A stretch of DNA of 25,501 nucleotides from positions 1 through 25,501 of IMG/VR virus record IMGVR_UViG_3300030104_000035. One strand, written 5' to 3'. The DNA comes from a virus. This document shows positions 19,379 through 24,128 of this stretch, piece by piece (within the stretch, counting starts at the first letter, position 1; each line of letters starts with the position of its first letter). The position numbers and the translations under genes were made by a program. The notes beneath the pieces were generated by a model that saw only the letters and a program-made list of their open reading frames with translations, had not been told where the DNA came from and searched no databases.

Positions 19379-19693
19379 TTATCTTTTACCGCCTCTGGCT
19401 CCACCTTTAGCTTTGCTTTTTTTACGCATCTTTAGTGGTTTAGCAGCAGGAGCTAGAAAACCGCCTCTTGCCATCTTCTTCATACCGCCTTTAGCCATGC
19501 CCTTCTTTTTCATAGCCATGCCGCCACCATACATCTTACCTTTACCATCAGCAGCATAAAATGGAACTTTCTTTCCATCCTTCATTACCATCTTGAGGCC
19601 ACCTTTAGCCATACCCTTTTTCTTCATGCCGCCTTTAGCCATACCTTTTTTCTTCATCATGGACCCTCTAGCGTAACCTTTTTTCTTCATCAT
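19379..19693 (-). CDS. Lys-Gly-Met repeat protein
   Basis: A 104-residue, extremely basic protein made largely of KKKGMAKGGM-like repeats (about residues 13-33 and 57-75), with a non-repeat part DGKKVPFYAADGKGKMYGGG between them and a Gly/Arg/Lys tail (KSKAKGGARGGKR). The start shares a base with the stop of the upstream gene (TAATG). The composition is that of a nucleic-acid-condensing or disordered charge-neutralising protein. I recall such Lys/Gly/Met repeat proteins from marine phages but no proven function. Packaging with DNA is an inference. Confidence 0.6.
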   Translation of the reverse strand: MMKKKGYARGSMMKKKGMAKGGMKKKGMAKGGLKMVMKDGKKVPFYAADGKGKMYGGGMAMKKKGMAKGGMKKMARGGFLAPAAKPLKMRKKSKAKGGARGGKR

Positions 19694-20376
19694 TATTCTT
19701 CATCCTCGCTGTAAAGATTGTTAAAAACTCGTTGCGTATCCCATACATAGTCTACGTTTTCTTTTGAGTTGTATATATGTTGATTGGGTCTGAAGTCTGG
19801 CGCACCTTCTCCAGTTTCAAACCAAGCTGGGTGAGTTACTCTCACTCTGTTATTGGGTAACGCAACCATGTTACCTGTATATTCTCCTGCATCTAGTAAC
19901 TCCAACACGTGTGATTGTTTATGTTGGGCAGGGTCATCTGCTACTTCGTTATCTGTGTAGTCTACAGTGAAGTAGTATTTGGCAGGATAAAACTCATTGT
20001 CTATCTTAGCTATCCAAGGCGCTGGGCTTGCCCTCTCTAGTTTATACACTGAATGTGTATGAGACATACAATCCCAAGGCTGTGCTAAATATGGTGGTAA
20101 CTCATTAGGCCATTCATCCAACGGTGTATCAGCTACTAGTGCGGTCAGTGGCATTCTAGCCCACATAGCACCACCATGTACGTTTTGAGCATCGTCATCG
20201 TCATCTGTTTCACAACCTGTGAATATAACTTGAAAGCTCAGTGTTCTGTTTGGCATTGTAGTAACGCCTATTACCATAGCGTGTAAGAAGTCACCATGAT
20301 AATCTTCCATATTCTTTGTATATTCTCTACGTACCCATGCTTTAAAGTACGGTATACTGCTTTGGAGGAATGACAT
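19693..20376 (-). CDS. Conserved 227-residue phage protein of unknown function
   Basis: A well-formed globular-looking protein (MSFLQSSIPYFKAWVRREYT, YHGDFLHAMVIGVTTMPNRT, SFQVIFTGCETDDDDDAQNV, then HGGAMWARMPLTALV, AQPWDCMSHTHSVYKLERAS, FYPAKYYFTVDYTDNE, ending in an acidic EDEE). I have seen close relatives in marine phage genomes, always as hypothetical. Several His and Cys (HGDFLHA, CMSHTH, HKQSHV) could bind metal, but no catalytic motif is evident. AAGGAT lies six to seven bases before the ATG, and a promoter candidate is located just upstream, so this gene may begin a transcription unit that reads into the terminase genes. Confidence 0.6.
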   Translation of the reverse strand: MSFLQSSIPYFKAWVRREYTKNMEDYHGDFLHAMVIGVTTMPNRTLSFQVIFTGCETDDDDDAQNVHGGAMWARMPLTALVADTPLDEWPNELPPYLAQPWDCMSHTHSVYKLERASPAPWIAKIDNEFYPAKYYFTVDYTDNEVADDPAQHKQSHVLELLDAGEYTGNMVALPNNRVRVTHPAWFETGEGAPDFRPNQHIYNSKENVDYVWDTQRVFNNLYSEDEE

Positions 20377-20435: not shown

Positions 20436-20699
20436 TTATTTTCTTTTCCTACCCGATGCTGTTGTAGACCAATTAACTTTTTTTGGACCAGTCTTTTTTG
20501 CAGCTTCTTTTTTACTTATTTTACCTGCTACCTTTGCAGGTCTACAAGCTGGGTATGGTCTACTAGAGTCCTTAGCACTTTTTCTTCCACACTTTTTGCC
20601 TGTCTTTACGTCACGCCAGTCTTCCTTAAACCACTTAGTTAGGCCACCTTCAGCAAAAGATCTACGACTTTCTAGTACGTGTCTTGACTTTTGATGCAA
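20436..20699 (-). CDS. DUF5872-like basic protein
   Basis: Basic protein with GGLTKWFKEDWRDVKTGKKC and a spaced Cys/Arg/Lys region (RPYPACRPAKVAGK), ending SGRKRK. The LTKWFKE-W-D...G-CGR pattern is that of the DUF5872 family, as I recall it, which is widespread in marine phages and of unknown function. I place the start at a TTG (20699) because AGGAGG stands five bases before it, giving 87 residues; a GTG at 20729 would add ten residues but lacks a binding site. The 5' end overlaps the preceding gene by 38 bases in another frame. The two Cys could bind metal. A virion or DNA-associated role is a guess based on charge and neighbours. Confidence 0.6.
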   Translation of the reverse strand: MHQKSRHVLESRRSFAEGGLTKWFKEDWRDVKTGKKCGRKSAKDSSRPYPACRPAKVAGKISKKEAAKKTGPKKVNWSTTASGRKRK

Positions 20700-20850
20700 C
20701 TGCTCCTCCTTTACTGTACGTGCCTCCACGTTTTTTGTAAGTTTTAACTAGCCATGCTGAACCGTATGCACTAGGCCAAGATTTAAACTTTTTCTTAGCT
20801 TCTGACTTTACTCTAGAGTACAAGGCTGGGTTCTTAGGTTTGCTTGCCAT
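20662..20850 (-). CDS. Small basic protein (KSWPSAYGSAWLVKTYKKRGG type)
   Basis: A 62-residue protein: PKNPALYSRVKSEAKKKF, then SWPSAYGSAWLVKTYKKRGG, then a basic tail ending ASKVKTRTRKS. The NPALY-RVK-EAK-KF-WPSAY-WLVKTYKKRGG pattern is strongly conserved in marine phage and some giant virus and cyanophage proteins, in my recollection; sometimes it is fused to a DUF5872-like part, which is here the next gene. It starts at a TAATG junction. Function is unknown; the high Lys/Arg content suggests nucleic-acid binding. Confidence 0.6.
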   Translation of the reverse strand: MASKPKNPALYSRVKSEAKKKFKSWPSAYGSAWLVKTYKKRGGTYSKGGAVASKVKTRTRKS

Positions 20851-21251
20851 TACTTTTTCTTTCTCTTCTTAGCAACGCCACCTTTATTCATAAGTGTCTT
20901 TTTTGACAATGCAGTTTTAGAATACTCTTGTGGCATCTTCATACTACCACCGCCACCACGACCAGTAAGTTTGGCTTTGGCACGACTTGCTCTTGAAAAT
21001 GCATTTGCCTTTCTATGAAGTTTTGCTCTTTTTTCAGCACCTGTCAAAGTAAACCTACCTAGATTATGCTTCTTTTCAAAAGTATCTAGTTTTTTTCGAG
21101 CCGCAGTTACTGCACGTTCAAAGGAAGCTACATCTTTAACTTTTGTTTTACCACCTTTATTTCTATTAATTCTTAAATAGTCACTAAAAATTCTTCCCGT
21201 TTTTTTAAGATTGTCTTTTAAGCTTTGATGTTCTTTTTTAATATCTACCAT
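20850..21251 (-). CDS. Basic Lys/Arg-rich protein
   Basis: A 133-residue protein from the ATG at 21251 (MVDIKKEHQSLKDNLKKTGR). That start is preferred to one at 21287 because it forms a TAATG junction with the preceding gene and has GAGG eight bases upstream. Residues about 15-60 are helical and basic (FERAVTAARKKLDTFEKKHN), followed by a Lys/Arg/Ala stretch (AEKRAKLHRKANAFSRASRA), a GRGGGGS hinge and a tail ending NKGGVAKKRKKK. It has no recognisable enzyme motif. It belongs to a cluster of basic genes that may encode packaged DNA-associated proteins. Confidence 0.55.
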   Translation of the reverse strand: MVDIKKEHQSLKDNLKKTGRIFSDYLRINRNKGGKTKVKDVASFERAVTAARKKLDTFEKKHNLGRFTLTGAEKRAKLHRKANAFSRASRAKAKLTGRGGGGSMKMPQEYSKTALSKKTLMNKGGVAKKRKKK

Positions 21252-21520
21252 TATGTACGCCTCGACTTTGTACCAGCACACTTCCACTTCTTACGAGATA
21301 GACGTAGTGGGCTGTTAGGGTTAGCTGCTGCCTTTGGATGTTTCTTCATCTGCCCAGCACTTCTTGCACAGTACGAATCACCTTTGGCTGTACCTGCACG
21401 TATACGTTTGCCACCATCCTTGGCTTTACCAGCCTGACCGTAGCTTACCTTTACCTTACGCCCTGTCTTAGGGTTAGTTGTTGTCTTGGCAAACATCTTG
21501 CCTTTTGCTGGTTTAGCCAT
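21251..21520 (-). CDS. DUF6321-like small basic protein
   Basis: An 89-residue protein (MAKPAKGKMFAKTTTNPKTG), with KGDSYCARSAGQMKK and NPNSPLRLSRKKWKCAGTKS. The KGDxYCARSxG...DPNSPLxLSRxKWKC pattern corresponds to a family I recall as DUF6321, found in marine phages and cyanophages and of unknown function. Two conserved Cys (about 51 and 81) may pair or bind metal. It is separated by eight bases from the coiled-coil membrane gene upstream and coupled by TAATG to the next basic gene. Confidence 0.6.
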   Translation of the reverse strand: MAKPAKGKMFAKTTTNPKTGRKVKVSYGQAGKAKDGGKRIRAGTAKGDSYCARSAGQMKKHPKAAANPNSPLRLSRKKWKCAGTKSRRT

Positions 21521-21528
21521 GTCTATCC

Positions 21529-22173
21529 TTACAGTGGGTTCTCTACCATACTATCATAAGCTTTCCAAATATCATCAATCTCTGTTTGGATTACGTCTAG
21601 CTTATCTCCTATAGTATCTGTTATTGTAGTTGATTTGTCAACCTGTGATCTTAAATCTAGTAAAACTTTCTGCTGCTCTAGTATCTGCTGCATGTTTGTA
21701 GCTAGTTGTGCAAGCTTTGAGTTTAGTCCTCTAACATCATTATCTACTATAGCTTGTTCTACAGTTTGTATTCTACTTGTTACCGTAGAGTCTAGTGTTG
21801 TTAGCCGTTCAGTTAACTGTTGCATTTTTGCAACACTATTATCGCTTAGGCTTGTTTCGACTTCTTGTAATTCTTTTCTTATTGCTGTACTTGCTGTCGT
21901 TAGTTCGTTTGCCGCAAATGTTTTATTAGCTGTTCGTTCTCTTGCTGTGTCGTTACTTAACTTAGTCAAGCTTTTTTGTAGCTCTGCAATTTGCTTTGCG
22001 TTGGTTCCAGCTTTACTTAGTGCGCTATCTACGCCACCCTCTACACCGTAGAACCTATTGAGAGTATCATAGCCCCAATATACACCACCTGATACAGCAG
22101 ATAGCACTGGCAAAGCCACAGCAACCATCCAGCCTTTAACATTAAAGCCTCCTATGCTGAACTCCATTGCCAT
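21529..22173 (-). CDS. Membrane-anchored coiled-coil protein (possible inner spanin)
   Basis: A 214-residue protein. Residues about 14-35 (GWMVAVALPVLSAVSGGVYW) form one membrane segment close to the N-terminus; residues about 46-205 are Gln/Leu/Thr-rich and helical with heptad-like spacing, a long coiled coil; the end reads EIDDIWKAYDSMVENPL, an ending I recall from related marine phage proteins. Most of the chain would lie in the periplasm if the N-terminus stays inside. That is the architecture of an Rz-like inner spanin, and a small lipoprotein is encoded two genes upstream, but no other lysis gene is present. A virion coiled-coil protein is the alternative. The start is at a TAATG junction. 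Confidence 0.5.
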   Translation of the reverse strand: MAMEFSIGGFNVKGWMVAVALPVLSAVSGGVYWGYDTLNRFYGVEGGVDSALSKAGTNAKQIAELQKSLTKLSNDTARERTANKTFAANELTTASTAIRKELQEVETSLSDNSVAKMQQLTERLTTLDSTVTSRIQTVEQAIVDNDVRGLNSKLAQLATNMQQILEQQKVLLDLRSQVDKSTTITDTIGDKLDVIQTEIDDIWKAYDSMVENPL

Positions 22174-23054
22174 TAGTTAGGCATAGTTCCGTATTCAGCT
22201 ACGTACTCACCTGCTCCATATATATCTGAGGCATCTTTAAACTCTGACGTTAAGTAGCCCTGCCAACCAGAGCCAAACCCATCATCGTTCCAGTTAATTA
22301 CAAACTCATCCATAGCTTGTGTGTACGTAATAGTTGTGTAGTTACCGACTGCAAAGTTATTAACTGTTGCGTAGCTGTCAATACTAGCTGTTAAATCTGT
22401 GTTGTTAGCTGCAGCCATAAAAGCACCAGCTTGCTGTGCGTAGTTCTCTACCTGTGCTACAGCTTGGTTGTACGCATCTACTTCTGCTTGGTCTATGCTG
22501 TACTCATCTGTACCCATCATGCCTTGCAGTGCAGTTTGCTCTGGCGATGTATCTGCTGCTGCAGCACTTTCCATTATACCAGTAGCTGTTAATACTTCAC
22601 CAGCAGCATCTGCTAGTAAGTCTATAGCTTCATCCAAGTTATTCATTGCACCTTGGTATTCTTGTGTAAATAACTCTTGTGCGTTAGCAGCAGTCTCGTA
22701 GTCGTGGTTTATTACAAGATCATGCGCTTCTACGTATGCATCAAACTCACCCTGCGTAATTAGTCCATCATTAAATGCGTCATCTACAACAACACCGCCC
22801 AGCGCAGCGTAACCAACAGCACCTACTGTCATTGTACCTGCGTCCGTCACCCTGTTCTTAATAGCACCCAGAGAAGATATTAGTGCGTCAATCTTTTCCT
22901 GCCCCGTCATTGACAGGTTTAGGTTTATTTCTACTTCCAGTTCCAGTGTTTGTGGTGGAGGTGGAGGCTGAACTGGTGGACTTGTTGCGTTTGCTACTCC
23001 TGAACTGGTCACTAAGGCTGCGCTTAGTAGTAGTATCTTCGACAAACTCTTCAT
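22173..23054 (-). CDS. Secreted protein with signal peptide, unknown function
   Basis: A 293-residue protein with a typical signal peptide (MKSLSKILLLSAALV..., cleavage expected after ANA at residue 23), a Pro-rich linker (PPVQPPPPP), then an Ala/Asp/Glu/Tyr-rich, largely helical acidic chain without Cys. GAGAGGA five bases upstream strongly supports the ATG, although the first 167 bases overlap the end of the preceding gene in another frame. The mature protein would act in the periplasm or outside the cell. I do not recognise the family. Its place between another secreted protein and the membrane coiled coil suggests a shared envelope role. Confidence 0.55.
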   Translation of the reverse strand: MKSLSKILLLSAALVTSSGVANATSPPVQPPPPPQTLELEVEINLNLSMTGQEKIDALISSLGAIKNRVTDAGTMTVGAVGYAALGGVVVDDAFNDGLITQGEFDAYVEAHDLVINHDYETAANAQELFTQEYQGAMNNLDEAIDLLADAAGEVLTATGIMESAAAADTSPEQTALQGMMGTDEYSIDQAEVDAYNQAVAQVENYAQQAGAFMAAANNTDLTASIDSYATVNNFAVGNYTTITYTQAMDEFVINWNDDGFGSGWQGYLTSEFKDASDIYGAGEYVAEYGTMPN

Positions 23055-23742
23055 TGTATTCCTCTCCTACTTTTAGTAAGCTATCCCAAAACTCTTTATC
23101 TAACTCGTACCCTACAACAAACAAATCAGGGTTTTCTCTGTACTTCATTATAGCATTCTTGCCCATCAACAATCTGCCAGTACGTGCATCGTTAATTGGA
23201 CACGGAGTATTAGCTAACATCATACTCCTAAATACTGTAGGGTCTTGGCACATCACTGAGATGGCTGACACCTGTAATCCTAACCCACCTACCTGTTGAG
23301 GTAACCCCAGCAATCTAGCATTCTTCCTGCGATTGCAATGTGGGTCTTGCTGCATCTCACCTTCAGAGATTCCAACTATATTTAACTGGATACCTCTGCT
23401 TTTAGGGATTAAGCAAGAGTCGTTACCTCCCCCACCCATTATTGTAGGAGCTATGCTGGACATTACCGGGCTACTCCCCGGAGATGAACCTGCTCCGTTG
23501 TAATTTATAATTTCACTTTGGTTGTTAGATTCTACAGTTGAATCTTCGTAGTTATTAGAGAAGTCACCTTCTATGTCGTTGCCATTGTCTGTAGTGGTAC
23601 TGTTGTTGTTAGTTATACCATCATCAATCGGCACTTGTTCCTGTGCATTCACTGGATGACAAAAAGCTACTAATAGTAGTGTCGCTACACATAAGCTTTG
23701 TAGCAGCTTCCGTATGTCCAATAAGTGCGAGTGTCTGTGCAT
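22888..23742 (-). CDS. Secreted four-cysteine protein, unknown function
   Basis: A 284-residue protein with a signal peptide (RKLLQSLCVATLLLVAF, probable cleavage after VNA at 33), an Asn/Ser/Asp-rich disordered region (about 40-105), a compact domain (about 108-228) and a Ser/Thr/Lys-rich tail. The domain contains SCLIPKSRGIQLNIVGIS, DPHCNRRKNARLLG, SVMCQDPTVF and TPCPINDARTGRLL; the four Cys (110, 136, 165, 181) could make two disulfides. I recall similar domains in marine phages but no function. The ATG at 23742 has a weak binding site; a TTG seven codons later is possible. The last 56 codons overlap the next gene, and the first 40 overlap the lipoprotein gene. Confidence 0.55.
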   Translation of the reverse strand: MHRHSHLLDIRKLLQSLCVATLLLVAFCHPVNAQEQVPIDDGITNNNSTTTDNGNDIEGDFSNNYEDSTVESNNQSEIINYNGAGSSPGSSPVMSSIAPTIMGGGGNDSCLIPKSRGIQLNIVGISEGEMQQDPHCNRRKNARLLGLPQQVGGLGLQVSAISVMCQDPTVFRSMMLANTPCPINDARTGRLLMGKNAIMKYRENPDLFVVGYELDKEFWDSLLKVGEEYNEEFVEDTTTKRSLSDQFRSSKRNKSTSSASTSTTNTGTGSRNKPKPVNDGAGKD

Positions 23743-23863
23743 CTTGGTTTCTCTGACATACAGTATCTCCCACCCTGCATGACGCTGTATATGTTATGGT
23801 TTGACAAGCGGATAACAACATTAGTATACATAGTTGTATCCAGAGATTGTTGTTTGTCAACAC
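23624..23863 (-). CDS. Small lipoprotein (possible outer spanin)
   Basis: A 79-residue protein starting with GTG, with AGGA seven bases upstream, four bases after the preceding stop. Residues 1-20 (MLTNNNLWIQLCILMLLSAC) form a signal with a lipobox LSAC, so Cys20 would be lipidated and the protein sorted to the inner face of the outer membrane. The mature part has three more Cys (CRVGDTVCQR and KLMCSD, with one further near the end). Size and lipobox fit an Rz1-like outer spanin, but the partner gene is not adjacent and the Pro-rich content usual for Rz1 is absent. It overlaps the next gene by 119 bases. Confidence 0.55.
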   Translation of the reverse strand: MLTNNNLWIQLCILMLLSACQTITYTASCRVGDTVCQRNQDAQTLALIGHTEAATKLMCSDTTISSFLSSSECTGTSAD

Positions 23864-23867
23864 TTAT

Positions 23868-24128
23868 TTATCCTACCCCTGGTCTTTTTCTTTCCGGGTC
23901 TAATACTTCATATTTCTGTAGGAATCCCTCTAGGTACATGGCTCTTTCTACGTGGTCCAGTGTGTACCTCTGTCCTAGCCTGGCTTCCAGCGCTTCACGC
24001 ACGTAGAATACATCGGACTTAGGAATGTGTACACGTCTTAGTCTGTTACTGTCACCGTCTGCTATTGCATCGTAGAACTCTTCAATGACATTCTCAGAAG
24101 AGTACAGGTGTATTTTGTTTTTATACAT
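23868..24128 (-). CDS. Small charged protein of unknown function, first gene after a structured leader
   Basis: An 86-residue protein (MYKNKIHLYSSENVIEEFYD, RRVHIPKSDVFYVREALEAR, GQRYTLDHVERAMYLEGFLQ). The pattern SDVFYVREALEARLGQRYTLDHVERAMYLEG is a segment I recall from other marine phage genomes, split here into two quoted parts; function is unknown. No ribosome binding site precedes the ATG; instead a long leader with an inverted repeat (24147-24220) ends 18 bases upstream, and a strong promoter lies at 24271-24300. Leader-controlled translation is plausible. It is the first gene of the envelope gene set. Confidence 0.6.
   Translation of the reverse strand: MYKNKIHLYSSENVIEEFYDAIADGDSNRLRRVHIPKSDVFYVREALEARLGQRYTLDHVERAMYLEGFLQKYEVLDPERKRPGVG

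Follow-up and report, generated by a model that had tools for sequence, protein, structure and literature searches.

How do phages that carry no recognizable spanin open the outer membrane of their hosts? In a 2018 survey, 91 of 677 genomes had no recognized spanin, 20 of these belonging to phages of marine cyanobacteria, and its authors asked if some other route exists (PMC6139136). The locus described here bears on this question. It consists of four consecutive genes, which we call LIPO, CYS, HEL, and COIL. A sequence-only reading recognized their products as a lipoprotein, a pair of secreted proteins, and a coiled coil with a membrane anchor. That reading observed that the first and last resemble outer- and inner-membrane spanins in architecture, but that two secreted proteins sit between them, and it offered three explanations: an extended spanin-type lysis complex, a superinfection-exclusion device, or a surface-modifying system. 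A search of the open-access literature, by title and the start of the abstract, found no paper on the four-gene set or on the polymerase-embedded reading frame described below, and none pairing spanins with a SAR11 phage or with an HMO-2011-type phage.

Results

Four overlapping genes encode envelope-directed proteins

The window, by which we mean the whole stretch of DNA analyzed, is a viral record 25,501 bases long. Its nearest isolate is Roseobacter phage CRP-207, which is assigned to the HMO-2011-type phages (PMC9038755), and the window phage is itself an HMO-2011-like marine phage. The minus strand of the window holds a late module of terminase, portal, coat, tail, and fiber genes, and the window ends short of the DNA polymerase gene. 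An amidase assignment for positions 229–2769, suggested by a match to phrog_5107, was dropped; because of the neighboring genes, we take the product to be a tail-type protein.

All four genes of the set are present where the sequence-only reading placed them, and they are transcribed from the minus strand in the order LIPO (23863–23624), CYS (23742–22888), HEL (23054–22173), and COIL (22173–21529). LIPO encodes a 79-amino-acid lipoprotein with an LSAC lipobox at residues 17–20 and a mature part that contains C29, C36, C59, and C73 and forms a mini-domain, C..R...A..L..IG...AA..LMC. The lipobox cysteine is kept in 35 of 35 aligned rows. C20, C29, and C36 are invariant in all 35, the four non-lipobox cysteines are mostly invariant, and the strict lipobox motif is found in 63 of 74 sets. 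By inspection, this short protein has no C-terminal hydrophobic segment and thus lacks the layout of a unimolecular spanin, in which a single protein combines an N-terminal lipobox with a C-terminal transmembrane segment.

The two proteins proposed to be secreted both begin with signal peptides, identified by inspection (...HPVNA/QEQ in CYS and ...GVANA/TSP in HEL). In the 284-amino-acid CYS, the signal peptide is followed by a low-complexity stretch, a core in which C110, C136, C165, and C181 are invariant, and a weakly conserved tail whose coding region overlaps HEL; the protein matches the profile phrog_20531 (E = 5.5e-9). HEL (293 amino acids) contains no cysteine in its translation, is conserved among relatives, is mostly helical in a low-confidence model, and gave nothing above the family cut-off when compared with Pfam. 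Searches of solved-structure profiles with CYS and HEL returned nothing below E = 0.1. AlphaFold2 models were of poor quality (mean pLDDT of 49.7 for CYS from 58 sequences and 48.8 for HEL from 36 sequences).

COIL, a protein of 214 amino acids, has the N-terminal hydrophobic segment and the coiled coil that had been claimed for it. Heptad-like periodicity exceeds that of shuffled sequences: only 1 of 1000 shuffles scored as high for residues 46–110, 2 of 1000 for residues 110–205, and 37 of 1000 when the whole of residues 46–205 was considered. Among relatives, the membrane end and the last ∼80 residues are conserved and the middle varies in length. In 72 of 74 sets, the tripeptide NPL occurs among the five C-terminal residues; the other two end in EKPLG and RNPMQ. 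The CRP-207 homolog of COIL, gp73, likewise has one hydrophobic segment. We take its label "putative lysozyme" to be a misnomer, since no such domain occurs in the window COIL or in the COIL relatives scanned, and we take the same view of the label "OmpA family protein" on CRP-810 gp53, for which no such domain was found in the window CYS or COIL or in the scanned COIL relatives.

Two features of these genes stand out. First, LIPO and CYS are homologous: the C-terminal mini-domain of LIPO aligns with the CYS core as a shared four-cysteine domain (hhalign E = 3.5e-6), and also aligns with the CYS proteins of SAR11 phages (E = 3.9e-5). Because the aligned parts lie outside the overlapping DNA, the likeness is not an artifact of gene overlap. 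Second, CYS overlaps both of its neighbors out of frame on the minus strand, LIPO by 119 nt (23624–23742) and HEL by 167 nt (22888–23054). In the CYS frame, differences at four-fold sites fall to 0.233 over LIPO and 0.164 over HEL, compared with 0.337 where CYS stands alone, where 39-codon windows range from 0.236 to 0.403. The suppression of synonymous change is thus clear over HEL and marginal over LIPO.

The set has other close neighbors. Upstream of LIPO, an 86-amino-acid soluble protein is encoded on the minus strand (23868–24128), and a homolog is encoded ahead of LIPO at 59 of the 63 distinct LIPO loci; we do not think that it is part of the complex. Immediately downstream of COIL is a series of small, very basic, Lys/Arg-rich open reading frames (20436–21520), and similar genes follow the set in CRP-207 and occur in CRP-603. 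Positions 19693–20376 match the ferredoxin-type phage family phrog_3704 (E = 5e-27).

The four genes are kept together in relatives

The sequence-only reading made its proposal depend on whether the four genes co-occur in relatives, and they do. Scans of viral contigs yielded 84 relatives of CYS, 346 of COIL, 120 of HEL, and 44 of LIPO, from which at most the best 80 per query were kept, and removal of protein-level duplicates gave 93 distinct loci among the matches listed. Within these matches, the order LIPO-CYS-HEL-COIL is seen in all 50 distinct relatives with more than 2.6 kb before COIL, and all four genes are present in 69 of the 93 loci, the other 24 being cut by contig ends. A profile scan for LIPO identified 63 distinct loci, and CYS is the next gene in 62 of the 62 with room for it. 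The overlaps are equally constant. They are found in all 74 distinct complete sets, always in one fixed frame, and span 28–149 nt for LIPO/CYS and 71–191 nt for CYS/HEL.

Sister phages that lack the set carry canonical spanins

If the set contributes to lysis, dedicated spanins beside an endolysin would be unexpected in the same genomes, a point that the sequence-only reading had singled out. The HMO-2011-type phages CRP-212, CRP-235, and CRP-738 do not have the set. Instead, each encodes an i-spanin, a small membrane protein recognized by the profile phrog_1026 "Rz-like spanin" (E = 2e-5 to 3e-6) and encoded next to a lysozyme gene. In all three, the i-spanin gene is overlapped by an unannotated lipobox reading frame on the minus strand, a candidate o-spanin (L186:24147-24392 in CRP-235, L272:22787-23038 in CRP-212, and L274:21838-22083 in CRP-738). 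A fourth phage without the set, CRP-345, has a spanin2-type protein adjoining its endolysin. Of 16 records, 11 have COIL and three have phrog_1026, and none has both, so that the spanin family of the sister phages is found in none of the 11 set-bearing records and in 3 of the 5 that lack the set. Although the pairs in CRP-235, CRP-212, and CRP-738 consist of two small proteins encoded next to a lysozyme and are unrelated to the set in sequence, they occur in sister phages of the same group and probably do the same job.

In CRP-603, neither the set nor a canonical spanin was found. At the position of the set, it has a single gene, gp76, for a 114-amino-acid transmembrane coil, beside a gene resembling the homolog of the one upstream of LIPO.

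Distant phages carry related cassettes, sometimes beside endolysin or holin-like genes

CYS homologs were detected in only 11 of 50,697 phage records, which comprise phages of SAR11, phages of Roseobacter, and metagenome-derived phages. With a SAR11-type CYS as the query, viral contigs yielded 547 relatives, of which the best 80 loci were kept. At SAR11-type loci, CYS is followed by a jelly-roll-like protein with a Glu/Pro-rich stretch and then by an NPL-ended coil. The cassettes of HTVC033P (gp46–gp44), HTVC023P (gp45–gp48), and Mosig (202–200) thus resemble the set in having a homologous CYS, an NPL-ended coil, and a secreted protein between them, but differ in that LIPO is absent, the jelly-roll-like protein takes the place of HEL, and the genes often lie among those for holin-like proteins and endolysins. 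The jelly-roll assignment was made by inspection; the Pfam match, to PF02018, has E = 0.0089, below the cut-off. The NPL motif is kept without exception in the 22 SAR11 coils aligned, and 16 of 63 distinct SAR11-phage CYS proteins have a lipobox of their own, which ties the cysteine domain to the outer membrane.

Profile comparison did not demonstrate homology between the window COIL and the SAR11 coils, nor was any demonstrated between HEL and the SAR11 jelly-roll protein. The window COIL is nearer to HTVC115P gp49 and to the NPL-ended coil of a contig from a Rhodobacteraceae bin (L354:5788-10451), where CYS, several secreted proteins, and the coil are followed by a reading frame with a GHSLG lipase-like motif. 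A relationship of the NPL coil to the Mu gp25 releasin was considered because the short NPL coil of phage S28C10 is annotated as DUF2730. We dropped this idea, as there was no Pfam DUF2730 match at E = 0.1, and releasin differs in that it is reported to be N-out and to have a cytoplasmic domain (PMC9239132).

What do the neighboring genes suggest? In 4 of the 11 CYS-bearing phage records, six of which were scanned in full, the set has a profile-called endolysin no more than about 1 kb away. These are HTVC033P (Amidase_2), HTVC023P (the next gene, phrog_894), MW202481 (phrog_7), and MW202675 (phrog_181). Among the loci listed, 27 distinct SAR11-type loci have room for a gene after the NPL coil, and in 10 of them the next gene encodes an M15 peptidase; in 15 of 47, the 2.5 kb preceding CYS include a holin-like gene of the CRP-207 gp42 or the L194 type. 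CRP-207 gp42 and its relatives in SAR11 phages and S28C10 form one family (56% and 47% identity); we call them holin-like because of their architecture, and PHROGs gives no function. The T7-like phage S28C10 has a gp42-type gene, CYS, a jelly-roll protein, and the NPL coil between its tail-fiber genes and terminase. The holin and Rz/Rz1 genes of T7 are located between tail-fiber genes and terminase. In CRP-207 and CRP-810, the endolysin is more than 20 kb from the set; in CRP-207, the holin-like gp42 and the endolysin-like gp43 are more than 25 kb away, and gp42 is also distant in other HMO-2011-type records.

These observations bear on two other explanations. The set could be a complex that excludes superinfecting phage or alters the cell surface, preventing further phage or newly released progeny from adsorbing. 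Superinfection-exclusion lipoproteins of the T5 Llp type are expressed early and block the receptor. Two secreted proteins between the anchors would suit such a device, as would the SAR11 protein, which is called carbohydrate-binding in two records, and the several secreted proteins between CYS and COIL in the Rhodobacteraceae contig. However, canonical spanins take the place of the set in sister phages, and in distant relatives it adjoins an endolysin or holin-like gene, and we regard exclusion or surface modification as an improbable function.

Alternatively, COIL might act with a protein that has an EF-hand-like motif and two hydrophobic segments as a holin/antiholin-like timing device, with the secreted proteins sensing the state of the envelope. 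The gene for this protein follows COIL in CRP-207 (L001:19623-19979) and at 7 of the 63 LIPO loci; homologs adjoin spanin2 in CRP-345 (L273:44917-45237) and the holin in CRP-810 (L275:21265-21567), all on the minus strand. As the gene is not next after COIL in the window or in most relatives, and gp42-type holin-like genes are encoded elsewhere in the same genomes, a timing device seems very improbable. The association of this family with lysis genes counts among the points in favor of a spanin-type function of the set.

A candidate lipoprotein reading frame lies within the DNA polymerase gene

A wider lipobox scan, which took in four more set-bearing records, together with BLAST uncovered a second lipoprotein candidate. 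In HMO-2011-type phages, the +1 frame of the DNA polymerase gene contains a proline-rich, Rz1-like reading frame with a lipobox (L002:9664-9873 on the plus strand in CRP-207, L187:6012-6218 in CRP-603, and L356:18806-19015 in G001). Of 85 distinct polymerases, 82 have the frame open and 83 have a lipobox in it, 82 of the latter also having an ATG start. Proline makes up 15.2% of the mature part versus 3.1% of that frame overall. Over the embedded frame, four-fold-site differences in the polymerase frame drop to 0.36, in a trough formed by windows starting at codons 111–191; 60-codon windows elsewhere in the gene are mostly at 0.5 to 0.63, and the lowest away from the trough is 0.488. When the synonymous codons of five genes were shuffled, the frame was open in 13 of 1500 shuffles and never with a lipobox. 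Openness by itself is weak evidence, since another part of the polymerase gene contains a window with the +1 frame open in as many as 73% of sequences; the case is carried by the trough, the lipobox, the ATG, and the proline content.

The embedded lipoprotein, rather than LIPO, may be the true o-spanin. COIL, or gp76 in CRP-603, would then be the i-spanin, and LIPO, CYS, and HEL would be accessory envelope proteins. Consistent with this arrangement, the frame is found in CRP-603 and in all 10 records that bear LIPO or the set and gave a usable polymerase sequence, and it is closed in CRP-345, CRP-235, CRP-212, and CRP-738, the four relatives with canonical spanins, and the CRP-207 copy matches the Rz-like spanin profile phrog_11621 (E = 0.0039). 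Against it, the other three of the four copies that were scanned matched no spanin profile below 0.1, and the frame sits in a replication gene, on the other strand and far from any i-spanin candidate. It also leaves the CYS and NPL coil of HTVC033P unexplained, since no such lipoprotein was found there in a lipobox scan that recovered 30 of 35 LIPO rows; that was one setting of narrower scans strict enough to miss LIPO of CRP-207 itself. We consider it unlikely that the embedded lipoprotein is the o-spanin partner of COIL or gp76. The embedded frame could equally encode an early exclusion lipoprotein.

Discussion

We favor the view that LIPO, CYS, HEL, and COIL form a late-lysis, periplasm-spanning complex, an extended spanin-type system for outer-membrane disruption with extra secreted subunits, and judge its probability to be roughly 0.52. 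This reading is preferred because it accounts for the anchors in two membranes, the fixed linkage, the lysis-gene neighbors in distant phages, and the replacement of the set by canonical spanins. Of the three explanations first offered, it is the one that fares best; superinfection exclusion and surface modification gained no positive support here. The spanin-type explanation also came through both comparisons that might have counted against it, co-occurrence and dedicated spanins, and it now has to accommodate a second o-spanin candidate in the polymerase gene. Also weighing against it are the distance of more than 25 kb between the set and the endolysin of CRP-207, the spacing of LIPO and COIL, CRP-603 with neither the set nor a canonical spanin, the failure to demonstrate homology of the window COIL and HEL with their SAR11 counterparts, and the poor structure models. 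The analysis shows the genes, their linkage, motifs, and overlaps, the homology of LIPO and CYS, and the absence of the sister phages' spanin family from set-bearing relatives; the localization, contacts, late expression, and lytic act of the proteins are inferred.

How might such a complex work? LIPO would be anchored in the outer membrane, and COIL in the inner membrane, from which the coiled coil with its terminal NPL would span the periplasm. CYS, with its LIPO-type cysteine domain, and HEL would link LIPO to COIL or reinforce their connection. After degradation of the cell wall by the endolysin, the assembly would collapse, and the outer membrane would be disrupted or fused.

The set invites comparison with two-component spanins such as lambda Rz/Rz1, T7 18.5/18.7, and T4 PseT.3/PseT.2, which also pair an outer-membrane lipoprotein with an inner-membrane coiled coil and are encoded by overlapping genes. 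An invariant lipobox cysteine, together with a membrane-anchored coil whose ends are conserved and whose middle varies in length, appears to favor a spanin-type architecture, and LIPO has the lipobox expected of an o-spanin. COIL, with its one hydrophobic segment and coil periodicity, is a candidate for an i-spanin, a protein type marked by an N-terminal transmembrane segment and a periplasmic domain in type II topology. The distribution of cysteines is also similar, COIL having no cysteine and mature LIPO having four. In the spanin survey, four cysteines are reported for 35 of 526 o-spanins, and i- and o-spanin genes are described as embedded, overlapped, or linked, the extreme being ∼1 kb (PMC6139136). 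Here, in contrast, LIPO and COIL are 1.45 kb apart, two overlapping genes for secreted proteins lie between them, and all four form one fixed block. There is also no secure sequence match: the best spanin-profile match of COIL is weak (phrog_739, E = 0.0027) and appears among other coiled-coil families, and LIPO gave no profile match to spanin families.

More tentatively, the set may exemplify a third, modular architecture for outer-membrane disruption in phages of marine alphaproteobacteria. In such a system, the cysteine-domain protein and the NPL-ended inner-membrane coil would be the fixed ends and the secreted middle would be exchangeable, being HEL in roseophages and the jelly-roll protein in SAR11 phages; in HMO-2011-type phages, it would operate beside the polymerase-embedded Rz1-like lipoprotein. 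We regard this generalization as possible, at less than even odds.

Abundant roseophages and SAR11 phages appear to use a multi-subunit alternative to spanins, overlooked so far because the genes involved overlap and have not been given a family name. If this is true, it would provide a testable answer to the question of how certain very abundant phages of the ocean breach the outer membrane, and it would mean that spanin-type function can be shared by more than two proteins.
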